Origin: Parafrankia irregularis
Lineage (GTDB): Bacteria; Actinomycetota; Actinomycetes; Frankiales; Frankiaceae
Assembly (NCBI RefSeq): GCF_001536285.1
Contig: NZ_FAOZ01000002.1
Span: 310,001 to 374,000 of the forward strand
Reading direction: 5' to 3'
Length of the DNA stretch: 64,000 bases
Both the position numbers and the translations under genes were made by a program. This document shows, in pieces, positions 7,188 through 17,087 of the stretch. Each line of letters starts with the position of its first letter. Position 1 is the first letter of the stretch. Below the pieces are notes generated by a model. It worked only from the letters and a program-made list of their open reading frames with translations. It was not told the origin of the DNA and searched no databases.

Positions 7188-7696
7188 TCACGACGCCGCC
7201 GTCAGCGGGTCGTCAGTGGCAGGCCGACTCTCTTCCGGACGTTCGTCGGTATAGGGGTGACTGCCTGGAAGCAGCACTGCGACCCGGAGTCGTCAACGAT
7301 GAGCATTGCACGCCACCGGCTGGTGGGGGGTACTTGCCCATTCGGATGGCGGGACGAGAGATCTCCGCTACAGGGTGGTATCCGCTCGAAACTGGACGTG
7401 TACGGAACGCCATAAGGGGATCGCTGACGCGGCAGACCTGGCCACGTAGGACAGCCGGCCGGGGCCGACTAAGTTTCCGCTCAGTAGGTTTCATCGTGAA
7501 TGACCGCGGAGAAGGCCGTGAAGCGGCGGACTTCCTCTCCGCGGACAGCTGGTGGCCAGCTGATCGAGCCGCTGGAAGGCCGGTGGGTCCGGACAGCTGG
7601 CCGCCGTGGCGGAGGAGATCTGTCGACATGTCATGAGCCGGGGACCGGCCGGAGACGGGCGAGGAGGATCGAGCCGGGTACCGGCGGCGCATCGGC

Positions 7697-7732
7697 GGGC
7701 GTTCGGGGGAGTGCGGGCGTTCGGGGGAGTGG
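7697..7732 (+). repeat. 18-bp tandem duplication carrying the ribosome site
   Basis: GGGCGTTCGGGGGAGTGC (7697-7714) is repeated at 7715-7732 with only the last base different. Each copy contains GGGGGAG, so the Shine-Dalgarno-like sequence ahead of the DUF2520 gene is present twice, at normal and at too-distant spacing. Confidence 0.8.
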
Positions 7733-7735
7733 GGC

Positions 7736-8695
7736 GTGATGGAGCACACGTGCGCGGCGGTGCCGGCCGCCGGCCAGTCGGCCGCCGGTCTGTCGGCTGC
7801 CGGTCTGTCGATCGCCATCGTCGGGCCGGGTCGGGCCGGCGCGGCGGTGGGCCGGGCGCTCGTGGCCGCGGGGCACCAGGTGCGCGCGCTCCACAGCCGG
7901 ACGCGGGCTGGGCGGGATCGGGCCGCGGCACTCTTCCCCGCGGCTGAGGTCTGTGCCACGCCGGCCGAGGCGGCCGCGCGCGCCGACGTGGTCCTGCTCG
8001 GGGTTCCGGACGACAGCATCGAACAGACGGCCGGGCGGATCGCGCCCGGTGTCGCGCGCACGCCCGCTGTGCTCGTCGCCCATCTGAGTGGGCGCCATGG
8101 GATCGCGCCGCTCGCACCGGCGGCCGCGGTGGGCGCCCGGCCGGCCGCGATCCATCCGATCATGACGCTGACCGGTGCGGCGACCGACCCCGACCGGCTC
8201 GTCGGCGCGACCTTCGGGGTCACCACCGCGCCCGGTGACGAGGACACGGCCGGGCTCGTCCGCCACCTGGTGGAAGGCATCGGAGGCCGGGTCGCGGTCA
8301 TTCCCGAGGAGCGACGCGCGAGCTACCACGCGGCGCTGGTGCTGGGGGGCAACTTTCTGGCCACGCTGGTCACGGCTGCGGGGCAGCTGCTCGCCGCTGC
8401 GGGCGTCCCCGATCCGGCGGAGGCGCTCGGACCGCTCCTGCGGATGTCGCTCGACAACGCCCTGGCGCACGGGGAGGACGCGATGACCGGTCCGGTCCGA
8501 CGCGGGGATGTCGGCACCGTCACAGCGCAGTGGTCGGAGCTGACGCGCCGGGACCCCCACCTCGCGGACGCGTATGGCGCGCTGGCGGTGTTGACGGCCG
8601 ATCGCCTCGAGCGCTCCGGCCTGCTGCCGGCCCGTACCGCCGCCGCGCTACGGGCCGGTGTGGCCCGCCCGGACGACAGGCCGCACGGCCCGTGA
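7736..8695 (+). CDS. Rossmann-like and DUF2520 domain protein
   Basis: A 319-residue protein. The N-terminal dinucleotide-binding motif GPGRAGAAVGRAL (after LSIAIV, residues ~25-45) and the DUF2520-type C-terminal half (conserved AIHPIMTLTGA, the YHAALVLGGNFLATL helix) match the family usually found just upstream of panC in actinobacteria. The family resembles ketopantoate or pyrroline-carboxylate reductases, but its reaction is not established. Here panC does not follow; htpX does. The start is GTG 7736, or ATG one codon later, both within range of GGGGGAG. Confidence 0.82.
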   Translation: MMEHTCAAVPAAGQSAAGLSAAGLSIAIVGPGRAGAAVGRALVAAGHQVRALHSRTRAGRDRAAALFPAAEVCATPAEAAARADVVLLGVPDDSIEQTAGRIAPGVARTPAVLVAHLSGRHGIAPLAPAAAVGARPAAIHPIMTLTGAATDPDRLVGATFGVTTAPGDEDTAGLVRHLVEGIGGRVAVIPEERRASYHAALVLGGNFLATLVTAAGQLLAAAGVPDPAEALGPLLRMSLDNALAHGEDAMTGPVRRGDVGTVTAQWSELTRRDPHLADAYGALAVLTADRLERSGLLPARTAAALRAGVARPDDRPHGP

Positions 8696-11100: not shown

Positions 11101-11634
11101 GCCGACATCGACGCGCTGGCTGCCCGAGTCCGGGCGGCATCCCATCTGACCGGCACCTTCGTCCTGCGGTCGGGGCGCACCAGTACGGAGTACTTCGACA
11201 AGTACCTGTTCGAGGCTGAGCCGGCGCTGCTGGCGGACATCGCTGCCGCGATGGCGGAGCACCTCCCGGCCGGGACGGAACTTCTCGGCGGGCTCGAGCT
11301 CGGCGGCATCCCGCTGGTGACACTGCTTTCGGCGCGCACCGGCCTGCCGGCCAGGTTCGTGCGCAAGAAGGCCAAGGAGTACGGAACCCGGCAGATCGCC
11401 GAGGGCGGCGAGGTCGCGGGCCGGCGGGTCGTCCTGGTCGAGGATGTCGTGACCAGCGGTGGTGCCGTGCTGGACGCCACCCGGGTGCTGCGCGAGCAGG
11501 GCGCGATCGTGGAGGACGTCCTGTGCGTCATCGACCGGCAGGAGGGCGGTCGCGAGCGGCTCGCCGAGATCGGGCTCACACTGCGCCCCGCACTCACCCG
11601 GGCCGACCTTGAAGCGGCGGAGCCCCGGGGGTGA
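11098..11634 (+). CDS. pyrE: Orotate phosphoribosyltransferase
   Basis: A 178-residue enzyme that joins orotate to PRPP to form OMP in pyrimidine synthesis. The PRPP-binding signature VVLVEDVVTSGGAV lies at about residues 112-125. The N-terminal FVLRSGRTSTEYFDKY resembles the substrate loop of the bacterial form. The GTG at 11098 gives the normal family length; the frame stays open upstream through the tandem repeats and terminator, which are not coding. The stop overlaps the next gene by 4 bp (GTGA). Confidence 0.93.
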   Translation: MADIDALAARVRAASHLTGTFVLRSGRTSTEYFDKYLFEAEPALLADIAAAMAEHLPAGTELLGGLELGGIPLVTLLSARTGLPARFVRKKAKEYGTRQIAEGGEVAGRRVVLVEDVVTSGGAVLDATRVLREQGAIVEDVLCVIDRQEGGRERLAEIGLTLRPALTRADLEAAEPRG

Positions 11635-12122
11635 CCCGGTGCGTTCCGGGCGGCGCCGACACCGGCGCCAGCGGCGGCGGCGGTCCGGGCCGGGCACCGA
11701 CGCTGTTCGTCTACGGAACGCTGCAGTTTCCCGAGGTCGTCGAGGCGCTGCTCGCGCGGCGTCCGATCATGAGCCCGGCCTCGGCCGCGGGGTGGCGTGC
11801 CGCGGAGCTGCGGGGCCAGACCTACCCGGGGCTGGTTCCCGCCGCTCCCACCGAGATCTGCGCCGGCGCCTGCCTGCACGGTCTCACCTGGGCGGAACGT
11901 GAGCTGCTCGACCTGTTCGAGGGCGATTACTACGAGGCACGCGAGGTTTCGCTGGTGGGTGGCGAAGTCGCTGTCGCCTACCTGTGGCGGGGACCCGTGG
12001 CGCAGGTACCGGTGCTGGCCTCGAACTGGGACGCAGGCCGGTTCGCGGCGAGGCATCTCGCCGAGTTCGTCCGGCGCTGCCAGCAGTGGCGGGCCCAGGT
12101 CGTGCCGAGGCCGCCGCGGTGA
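11631..12122 (+). CDS. Gamma-glutamylcyclotransferase-like (AIG2 fold) protein
   Basis: A 163-residue protein with the FVYGTLQFP motif (residues ~26-34) that defines the gamma-glutamylcyclotransferase/AIG2 superfamily, plus the family's ELLDLFEGDYYEA segment with the acidic residue expected to act as base. The first ~22 residues are glycine-rich and not part of the fold. Substrate is unknown; relatives open gamma-glutamyl amines or peptides to 5-oxoproline. The GTG start overlaps the pyrE stop, so translation is probably coupled, although no metabolic link with pyrimidine synthesis is obvious. Confidence 0.82.
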   Translation: MTRCVPGGADTGASGGGGPGRAPTLFVYGTLQFPEVVEALLARRPIMSPASAAGWRAAELRGQTYPGLVPAAPTEICAGACLHGLTWAERELLDLFEGDYYEAREVSLVGGEVAVAYLWRGPVAQVPVLASNWDAGRFAARHLAEFVRRCQQWRAQVVPRPPR

Positions 12123-12147
12123 CAGGTGCCGCGGCGGCCCCGGCGGT

Positions 12148-12212
12148 CAGGACGTCGATGACCTGGCCAGGACGTCATGGACTACCAGGACGTCAGGGAC
12201 GGTCAGGACGTC
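12148..12212. repeat. Four-copy CAGGACGTC direct-repeat array
   Basis: CAGGACGTC occurs at 12148, 12168, 12186 and 12204, with start-to-start spacing of 20, 18 and 18 bp. Each copy contains the self-complementary hexamer GACGTC. The array fills the 101-bp gap between the 3' ends of two convergent genes. Confidence 0.85.
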
Positions 12213-12223
12213 ATCGGTCGAGG

Positions 12224-12964
12224 TCATCGGTCCGGGTTCGGCGGTTCCTCGCCGCCTCGGTGCTCGACGTCGCCCTGGACGTTCCGGTAGCGGGTGTCCG
12301 GGCGTTCGGCTCCGGAGCGGGTGCCCGGGCCGGCCGTGGTCGGCTGGAAGAAGTCGCCGCCGGCGCCACTGTTGCGCGCCGCGCCGCCGCTGTCACCTGC
12401 CGCGCGGTCTCCGCCGCCGGTCGCGCCGGCGCCACCTCGGGTTCGCGGACCGGCACCGGTGGAGCTACCCGCGTAGGCGCCGCTGCGGACCTGCTCCGCC
12501 GTGCCGCGCGCCAGTCCCGGGCGGTCTCCTGGGTAGGGCTGCACCGCTCCGCCTGTGCTGACCCGGCTCGGGTAGGTCGCCAGCGCGTAGATCACCAGGA
12601 TGTCGAGCGCGATGATGACCACCGACCAGACCGGGAACGCGGCGAGGAAGGCCAGCTGACCGATGGCGTTCAGCGCGGCGATGATGATTCCGACCCAGCG
12701 GGCGAGCTCGTTGCCGGCCGCGATGGCGAACGCGATGCACATCTCGACAATGCCGACCGCGATCCAGAGCCAGCCCCAGAACGTGGTGCCGGCGTAGATC
12801 ACTCCGTTGCCGTTCGAGCTGGAGCTCAGGTTGTCCACCACGACGACGTAGTCGCGCAGTGACGCGATGCCGTAGATGAGGTTGTGGAAACCGACGATGA
12901 ACATGACGACGGCGGCGAAGATCAGCCAACCGTCCGTGCTGCGTGCCTGCCGCAGGTCTACCAT
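12224..12964 (-). CDS. Four-helix membrane protein with low-complexity tail, unknown function
   Basis: A 246-residue protein. After DLRQARSTDGW the first ~150 residues contain four hydrophobic helices (near FAAVVMFIVGFHNLIYGI, FWGWLWIAVGIVEMCIAFA, WVGIIIAALNAIGQL and VWSVVIIALDILVIYALA). This is the pattern of a small actinobacterial membrane-protein family that I know only as hypothetical (DUF7144-like). The last ~95 residues are Gly/Ala/Arg-rich and disordered. The start is ATG 12964 with GGGAGGA upstream. No enzymatic motif is seen. It converges on the gamma-glutamylcyclotransferase-like gene. Confidence 0.75.
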   Translation of the reverse strand: MVDLRQARSTDGWLIFAAVVMFIVGFHNLIYGIASLRDYVVVVDNLSSSSNGNGVIYAGTTFWGWLWIAVGIVEMCIAFAIAAGNELARWVGIIIAALNAIGQLAFLAAFPVWSVVIIALDILVIYALATYPSRVSTGGAVQPYPGDRPGLARGTAEQVRSGAYAGSSTGAGPRTRGGAGATGGGDRAAGDSGGAARNSGAGGDFFQPTTAGPGTRSGAERPDTRYRNVQGDVEHRGGEEPPNPDR

Positions 12965-13126
12965 CTGGTCCTCCCGGCTGCGCGGCAACGCTTGCTGTAG
13001 CCAGGCGGCCACCCTGCGCCGCACGCGAGTCAGATACCCCCGCTGGCCTACGTCACTCCCCGCGCCCGGTCGACTTCCACGATCCGCGTGCACCTGCGCG
13101 ATCCGTGGCACCACGCCGACCCGGGT

Positions 13127-14803
13127 TCAGGGCGCCAGCGCGGTACCCGCGGCCCCGGCGGCTCCCGCGGCCGCGGCTCCGGCGGCAGGGGCCGCATCTG
13201 TGGCGCCAACTGTGGCCGGCAGCAGCACGACCGAGTTCGTCGCCGCCATCCATCGCAGCCGGCCGAACTGGAACGCGCTCTCCCGGCCGCCGGGCACCGA
13301 GTACTCGTCCGTTACCGGCAGCCCCAGGCTCGACACGGAACCGCCGAGATCCAGGTAGTGCCGCAGGATCTGGCCGTGCACCTCGTGCGCGCCGGTGGCC
13401 AGGCTCCAGTAGATCCAGCCGCCTTCGAACATCGCCTGATGCGCGCCGGGCGCGGCGGCCCACTCGACGTCGCTCAGCGGGCGTTTCAGGAAGCTGTCGG
13501 AGCCGCCGAGGGCCAGGTACTTCCGGGCCACCTCACCGTGCAGCGCCCGTGCTCCGGACCGGACCGACCAGAAGAGCAGTCCGTTCGTGAACGGCCGCCA
13601 GCGTCCGCCGCCGCCGGCCGCGAGCTCCGTGTTGGTCGGGGCGCCCAGGGCTATCCGCATGAGACCGCCCGAGGCGTACCTCTTGTCGAGCTCGGACTGG
13701 GTTCCGTCGGCGAGCGCGGCCAGAGAGGCGGGCGAGCAGCAGGCGGCGTTCATGTCGACGTTCCCGATGATGCCCGGGACGTCGCCGGACGAGCTGTACT
13801 GCCAGATCGCCCAGTTGGACCAGCCGCCGGGTAGCCACCCCGGAGTGTCCTCGTTGTTGTAGATCGCGAACCAGAACGGATAGAGGGCGAAGTCGTCCGT
13901 GTCGGCCATGTGGTCCGTCCAGAACGACCGATAGGTGTAGATGATGGGCGCGCGGCCGGTCTGGGTCTCGATCTCCTCGAGGAAGGCCCGGGTCCACGCG
14001 GCGAGCGCGACCGGGTCCAGGCCGCCGGTCGTCTCGAGGTCGAGGACGGGGGCCAGATGCCCGGCCGAGCGAGTGAGACCTGTCACAGCCAGGAAGTGCC
14101 GTGCCTGGTCGACCGCGGTGGAGATCGGGGCCGCCGGGCGGGCGTAGTGGTAGGCACCCACGGTGAGCCCCGCCAGCCGGGCCGCGTCGCGGTCCGCGGC
14201 GAAGTACGGGTTGGTGTACTCGGTGCCCTCGGTGGCCTTCACGATCGCGAAGCTCACCCCGGAGGCCTTGACCGCGTTCCAGTCGATCGGTGCCGAGCCG
14301 GGGTGCTGCCACGAGGCGATGTCGACGCCCTTGGGCCAGGTGGGAGACGGCGCCGCGGAGGCGGTCGGTGCGGACAACGCGACCGCGGTGACGGCGACCG
14401 TCGCCGCGCTGAGAACGCGCACGGAGAACCGGCGGGCGTTGCGCAGCCGCCAGGCGGCGACCGCGTGATGGATCACAGCCGGAACGTCGTCATCCTGGCC
14501 ACCGGACCGGCCGGCCGCCTCCGTGCCGGTCGCATCGCGGCCGATCTCCTCCCGGCCGACCGTCATCCTCGCGTGGGCCCTGTCCGCGGCCGGTTTCCGG
14601 TCGGCCGGCATCGGCTGAGCCTGGAACGCGGCGTGCAGCGTCGCGTAGGACGTCCCGGGCGGCAGGGACGCTCCTGCCGGGACGTGCAGCCCACCCCACG
14701 GAACCGGCCGGCTGGCCGTCGCTCGCGGGTGCGGCCCAGCTGGGACGTCGGGTGCCGCATCCGGTGTTCGGGAGTCTCGGGGCGGACGGTGCGTGGGCGG
14801 CAT
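13127..14803 (-). CDS. Secreted GH25 muramidase with C-terminal LGFP repeats
   Basis: A 558-residue predicted cell-wall lysozyme. Residues ~120-151 look like a signal peptide: RNARRFSVRVL, a hydrophobic core, then SAPTASA before APSP. The GH25 domain runs from about 157 (KGVDIASWQ, KATEGTEYTNPYF, LDLETTGG, WAIWQY), with the catalytic Asp/Glu pattern present. It is followed by LGFP-like repeats (LGAPTN, LKRPLSD, LGLPVTDEY) that may bind arabinogalactan or peptidoglycan. The start is uncertain. ATG 14803 has GAGGT at good spacing but puts the signal 120 residues inside; ATG 14566 would be more conventional but lacks a ribosome site; ATG 14875 could be leaderless. Presumed role: wall remodelling during growth or sporulation. 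Confidence 0.85.
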   Translation of the reverse strand: MPPTHRPPRDSRTPDAAPDVPAGPHPRATASRPVPWGGLHVPAGASLPPGTSYATLHAAFQAQPMPADRKPAADRAHARMTVGREEIGRDATGTEAAGRSGGQDDDVPAVIHHAVAAWRLRNARRFSVRVLSAATVAVTAVALSAPTASAAPSPTWPKGVDIASWQHPGSAPIDWNAVKASGVSFAIVKATEGTEYTNPYFAADRDAARLAGLTVGAYHYARPAAPISTAVDQARHFLAVTGLTRSAGHLAPVLDLETTGGLDPVALAAWTRAFLEEIETQTGRAPIIYTYRSFWTDHMADTDDFALYPFWFAIYNNEDTPGWLPGGWSNWAIWQYSSSGDVPGIIGNVDMNAACCSPASLAALADGTQSELDKRYASGGLMRIALGAPTNTELAAGGGGRWRPFTNGLLFWSVRSGARALHGEVARKYLALGGSDSFLKRPLSDVEWAAAPGAHQAMFEGGWIYWSLATGAHEVHGQILRHYLDLGGSVSSLGLPVTDEYSVPGGRESAFQFGRLRWMAATNSVVLLPATVGATDAAPAAGAAAAGAAGAAGTALAP

Positions 14804-16917: not shown

Positions 16918-16992
16918 GCGGTGGCCGGGGGCCCCGTCGGCGAGTCGGGCGCCCCGTCGGCGCGTGGGACCGGCCTTGTCAGGCCACGGGCC

Positions 16993-17049
16993 GGCTGTGA
17001 GCCCGTGAGACGGCTGTGAGCCCGTGAGAGGGCTCTGAGGCCACGAGAC
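16993..17049 (+). repeat. 19-bp tandem repeat, three units
   Basis: GGCTGTGAGCCCGTGAGAC (16993-17011) is followed by a near-identical unit (17012-17030, last base changed) and a more diverged third (17031-17049). It ends two bases before the hadB/aspC terminator. Confidence 0.8.
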
Positions 17050-17050
17050 G

Positions 17051-17087
17051 GCACGGGCCCCGCGGCGGCTCGCCGCGGGGCCCGTGC
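17051..17087. terminator. Bidirectional terminator between hadB and aspC
   Basis: A perfect 17-bp stem (GCACGGGCCCCGCGGCG at 17051-17067 and its complement at 17071-17087) with a 3-nt loop lies between convergent genes and can serve both. Confidence 0.85.

Follow-up and report, generated by a model that had tools for sequence, protein, structure and literature searches.

The convergent junction

The window, the whole stretch of 64,000 nt that was analysed, corresponds to C2:310001-374000 of a 9.5-Mb Parafrankia genome. The array studied here lies at the junction of two convergent genes, an arrangement that the first-pass annotation had described correctly, with a gamma-glutamylcyclotransferase-like gene (PF06094) on the left and a DUF7144 gene (PF23636) on the right. 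The junction contains the following features.

11631..12122, + strand: gamma-glutamylcyclotransferase-like gene (PF06094), stop codon at 12120-12122
12104..12144, unstranded: GC-rich hairpin with 16-nt arms (12104-12119 and 12129-12144) that are 94% complementary, 9 nt between
12148..12156, + strand: CAGGACGTC copy 1, then an 11-nt spacer
12168..12176, + strand: CAGGACGTC copy 2, then a 9-nt spacer
12186..12194, + strand: CAGGACGTC copy 3, then a 9-nt spacer
12204..12212, + strand: CAGGACGTC copy 4, overlapped by the DUF7144 stop codon in Parafrankia sp. EUN1f
12207..12232, + strand: imperfect 13-nt repeat in two copies (GACGTCATCGGTC / GAGGTCATCGGTC), a further small duplication at the array's right edge
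12224..13114, - strand: DUF7144 gene (PF23636), the convergent neighbour, stop codon at 12224-12226

The four 9-mers with a GACGTC core were confirmed as exact copies on the + strand, at steps of 20, 18 and 18 bp. This spacing had been called near two helical turns, which is a loose description, since 18 bp correspond to about 1.7 turns and 20 bp to about 1.9. Altogether the window holds ten occurrences of CAGGACGTC on both strands, six of them outside the array, while 100 dinucleotide shuffles of the window gave a mean of 1.6 and a maximum of 4. The window has one place where some 9-mer occurs at least four times within 80 nt, and one shuffle has none; in 864 kb of the genome there are 16 such clusters, six of which are intergenic, and none in shuffles. 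Tandem Repeats Finder (TRF) reports the array as head-to-tail copies of one unit, with a period of 18, 3.6 copies and a score of 60 (2.7 copies and a score of 68 for its right part). The array is non-coding and goes beyond what chance would give.

Rightward in the window follow domains of rpoB, rpoC, elongation factors G and Tu, L5, L6, secY and rpoA, and because rpoB, rpoC, ribosomal-protein and related genes stand in the same window, the array locus belongs to the core chromosome. The iterons of plasmid and phage origins are direct repeats at about 18-22 bp. The array resembles them in consisting of direct repeats at a similar spacing but differs in lying on the core chromosome, at convergent 3' ends, and a scan of 14 neighbouring proteins found no replication gene. 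No match to the array was found in a plasmid collection, and no Rfam family exceeded its gathering cut-off in 11900-12500 (the best was sodF sRNA, with 23.4 bits against a cut-off of 46). A search for sigma-70 promoters found none and is uninformative, since shuffles lead to the expectation of none either. At 13105-13158, beyond the DUF7144 gene, EUN1f carries about 0.9 kb of extra DNA before the glycosyl hydrolase 25 gene.

The hairpin and the array in related genomes

The cyclotransferase gene ends within the hairpin at 12104-12144, its stop codon lying inside the structure. The folding energy of the hairpin is -37.9 kcal/mol on the + strand and -39.5 on the - strand (z-scores of -4.5 and -5.3). 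It was found at the junction in all six genus genomes compared, with the adjoining sequence turning over, and 98% of its pair cells are kept. Since 14 of the 17 pairs are invariant and none is altered on both sides, covariation speaks neither for nor against it. The hairpin has the stable stem at a gene 3' end that characterizes intrinsic terminators, and a search for a T tract after the stem gave no terminator-like site in 11500-12700, with a mean of 0.3 in shuffles; it would be a two-way terminator of the kind that lacks a T tract. It is the hairpin, not the array, that is conserved at the junction. In G003 and G004 the hairpin is apparently duplicated in part on the side of the cyclotransferase gene.

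The array is restricted to two of the six genus genomes, namely the window's genome and EUN1f, where it lies on NZ_ADGX01000014.1 at 52251 with the same two genes alongside. Calculated from the positions of the hairpin and of the ORF ends, the distance from hairpin to DUF7144 stop codon is 79 nt in the window and 66 nt in EUN1f, versus 10 nt in G005, 14 nt in G002, 10 nt in G003 and 10 nt in G004, the four relatives without the array. Because the cyclotransferase of EUN1f is 94% identical to that of the window while those of the other four are 59-66% identical, one gain of the array in the ancestor of the window strain and EUN1f would be the simplest reading, although loss elsewhere is possible. 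A comparison of copy number among strains had been proposed as a check; the array has the same length in EUN1f, the only relative that carries it, and is absent from the four others.

Another reading takes the array as a functional RNA or an extension of the terminator. The self-complementary copies could form a second stem-loop, so that the DUF7144 transcript and, in the opposite direction, the cyclotransferase transcript would end at two terminators in tandem; we regard this as unlikely. Passages of PMC8355165 propose hairpin clusters downstream of genes, also those without a U trail, as terminators. The present junction is similar to what is described there in having a very stable GC-rich hairpin at a stop codon with a weaker fold adjacent, and it differs in that termination is deduced here and the array is not conserved in the genus. 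Folded alone, the array gives z-scores of -2.25 and -2.31 in the window and -3.31 and -4.07 in EUN1f relative to shuffles, but GACGTC repeats fold in any order, so that modest z-scores are expected; the wider region, with stronger values of -4.6 and -5.5, includes the main hairpin. Copy 2 pairs with copy 3, and the change from AG to CT in EUN1f lengthens the + strand stem from six to eight pairs, yet the outer stems differ between the window and EUN1f. Furthermore, the four copies contain 12 CAG letters, of which 9 stay unpaired in the + strand fold of the window, and therefore structure does not account for the conservation of the copies. The main hairpin may suffice, and the array is dispensed with in four relatives.

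The first-pass annotation had stated that neither neighbouring gene explains the array. This holds for the encoded proteins, but in EUN1f the last repeat and the DUF7144 stop codon share 2 nt. A related possibility is that the array represents a shortened C-terminal tail of the DUF7144 protein, as the minus strand reads Asp-Val-Leu (GACGTCCTG) repeats, the 18-bp step preserves the frame, and the C-terminus of this protein is variable and of low complexity. We consider such a coding remnant hardly tenable: by codon arithmetic the Asp-Val-Leu frame differs from the DUF7144 frame in both species, the 20-bp step breaks the frame, and such repeats are missing from the C-terminal tails of the relatives that were compared.

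Decoy RNAs of the CsrA/Rsm type carry repeated GGA motifs. This candidate was also rejected, with no match to PF02599 in the window's genome and matches in three of 14 control genomes.

The 9-mer and its spacers

Between the window and EUN1f, none of the 36 core sites and four of the 29 spacer sites differ (p = 0.035, or p = 0.084 when the adjacent change from AG to CT is counted as one event, leaving three events), a weak test based on a single relative that shares the array. Since the blast segment around the array shows 96% identity over 9.6 kb, an untouched core of 36 nt is unremarkable by itself. The outcome that had been named as fatal to a binding array, a 9-mer varying as freely as its spacers, was looked for and not seen in these small numbers. 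Within the window, the 9-mer is identical in four copies, whereas the mean identity of the spacers is 0.52 versus 0.43 for unrelated spacers. Under simulated uniform decay, an invariant run of nine columns was obtained in five of 20000 arrays; because the simulation is ungapped, it treats copy 1, with its spacer 2 nt longer, somewhat harshly. In 1757 kb sampled from this and related genomes, 112 loci carry a 9-mer at least three times at steps of 14-24 bp, against none in shuffles. Of these loci 34 are intergenic, and three of the 34, each with three copies, have a spacer identity of at most 0.5; the sample yielded no further four-copy array at 0.55 or below.

Such a pattern brings to mind four palindromic GACGTC-core sites for a cooperative regulator or nucleoid protein that, for example, blocks read-through or anchors DNA. 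Invariant cores with variable spacers are what such a reading expects, as are the location of all four substitutions relative to EUN1f in the spacers, the steps of 18-20 bp and the constant length in EUN1f, the last of which is also true of ten other arrays. Goekera deserti adds a possible parallel, in which the word occurs four times at 15-bp steps with varied spacers. On the other hand, the array is missing from the junction in four of six genus genomes, the steps of 20, 18 and 18 bp keep no constant helical phase, and we judge a binding array unlikely. It would be similarly improbable that four candidate protein sites were fixed at this convergent junction, near a cluster of transcription and translation genes, as a roadblock or anchor between the transcripts with the 9-mers alone under selection.

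The distribution of the motif also counts against protein binding. Outside the array, CAGGACGTC has eight occurrences in 175 kb of intergenic sequence and 66 in 689 kb of genes, and is therefore denser in genes than between them. Among 400 composition-matched words, ten reach eight intergenic occurrences and none reaches 66 in genes. The genome-wide search for arrays of the 9-mer that the first-pass annotation had suggested revealed no exact copies at steps of 18-20 bp elsewhere. Exact pairs 5-25 nt apart occur in the whole genome only in the array, in a three-copy cluster on C59 and at C5:122707, where the step is 26 and the sequence seemingly coding. The C59 cluster (C59:12045-12089) combines GACGTC and CAGGACGTC at steps of 14 and 22 at an apparent convergent gene end, and seems to contain a minus-strand stop codon. 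As a second member of a family it was rejected: in EUN1f it is rearranged, shortened and partly lost, with its words changed. Apart from C59, no further intergenic cluster of the motif was found, and the array is not conserved at its locus across the genus. The proposal of an iteron-like binding array thus lacks support, considering the core-chromosome location, the absence of 18-20 bp steps elsewhere and the failure of the C59 cluster to be preserved.

GACGTC triples, in coding and non-coding DNA together, occur in at least 56 places of the window's genome versus at least 22-33 in five relatives. The reversed-pattern control CTGCAG (0-5 places) is unmatched, CTGCAG itself being rarer than GACGTC (44 intergenic and 254 coding sample counts versus 115 and 831), and for this reason nothing is concluded from this control. 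A search allowing three mismatches gave at least 179 and at least 172 places by strand (at least 61 and at least 75 for the control), with no family discernible among the matches listed. Any exact motif pair 6-14 nt apart was present in 11 of 35 family genomes. In a collection of 84,980 species, 60 stretches have three copies of CAGGACGTC at similar steps, one of which is EUN1f; according to tblastn, homologues of the two neighbouring genes are found in none of the other 59 within the available DNA. In many of the intergenic stretches among the 60, the spacers are repeated as well. A longer array, with near-perfect 18-bp units that carry a CACGACGTC word and a GACGTC core, was noted at C21:5533-5793.

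Short tandem arrays and the origin of the array

The genome is rich in short tandem arrays. With a period of 15-23 and a score of at least 50, TRF gives 27 rows in the window, compared with a mean of 1.1 and a maximum of 4 in 20 shuffles. Intergenic arrays number 117 in the 864 kb sampled, as split from genic ones by a crude classifier based on G+C content at codon positions, which also underlies the intergenic and genic counts given above for the motif, for the 9-mer clusters and loci and for the stretches of the species collection. Two 400-kb samples of this genome have densities of 0.70 and 0.61 per kb, and the window has 0.80; elsewhere the density is 1.24 in the EUN1f contig, 0.78 in G009 and 0.56 in G002, versus 0.22 in G010 of the same family and 0.25 in the outgroup G035. 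The array-rich habit is common to some, not all, of the family. Intergenic periods range over about 13-20 with no sharp peak, while genic periods are mainly multiples of three (15, 18 and 21). By type of junction, convergent intergenic regions are slightly the densest, with 28 arrays in 24.6 kb, followed by tandem (65 in 67.8 kb) and divergent regions (25 in 37.1 kb). Judged by title, no paper among those listed in the literature search deals with intergenic Frankia tandem repeats of 14-22 bp, and we make no claim that these are unreported; passages of PMC4060949 cover repeat units of up to 11 bp.

Array lengths were compared with EUN1f for 25 arrays of the window (score of at least 50, left of 52,300), of which four lacked a placement for one flank or for both. 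Among the 21 placed arrays, 11 have the same length, including the studied one, and ten differ, in some cases by two units (for instance, +36 at 2790 and +38 at 16992), the lengths being projected from flank alignments, with error possible where a flank aligns partly.

Taken together, the array is probably an old, decayed slippage minisatellite that has enlarged the spacer beside a conserved terminator-like hairpin. The first-pass annotation had offered a slippage-derived 18-bp repeat with a conserved half as its alternative, and this now fits best: the repeat is lineage-specific, the genome abounds in arrays of 14-22 bp, and the junction measures 10-14 nt in four relatives. In the ancestor of the window strain and EUN1f, slippage or duplication of a short unit would have produced about four copies of an 18-bp unit. 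The duplication would have been placed between the conserved hairpin and the DUF7144 stop codon, the gap growing from about 10-14 nt to 66-79 nt, and the spacer halves would have diverged afterwards. Both the slippage mechanism and a gain rather than a loss are deduced from these comparisons. GACGTC is identical to its reverse complement, so that as RNA or single-stranded DNA the copies can pair together, and the array might in this way add a weak second hairpin to the main one. No dedicated function would be needed for the array.

Like intergenic minisatellites of the VNTR type, the array is composed of head-to-tail 18-bp units, is lineage-specific and non-coding, and lies in an array-rich genome. 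Unlike them, it combines an invariant 9-mer with unusually divergent spacers and is equally long in both species; a change of copy number between close relatives, usual in minisatellites and not required of an old one, was not observed. The contrast between core and spacers is the one feature that a slippage minisatellite explains poorly. Where short tandem repeats abound in a genome, an ordinary duplication can look like a binding array; if the core is under selection, the locus would be an example of a binding array born by slippage. Several of the many unrelated short tandem arrays of the genome, among them those at 2790-2841, 7695-7737 and 16992-17052 of the window, change in length between the close species.
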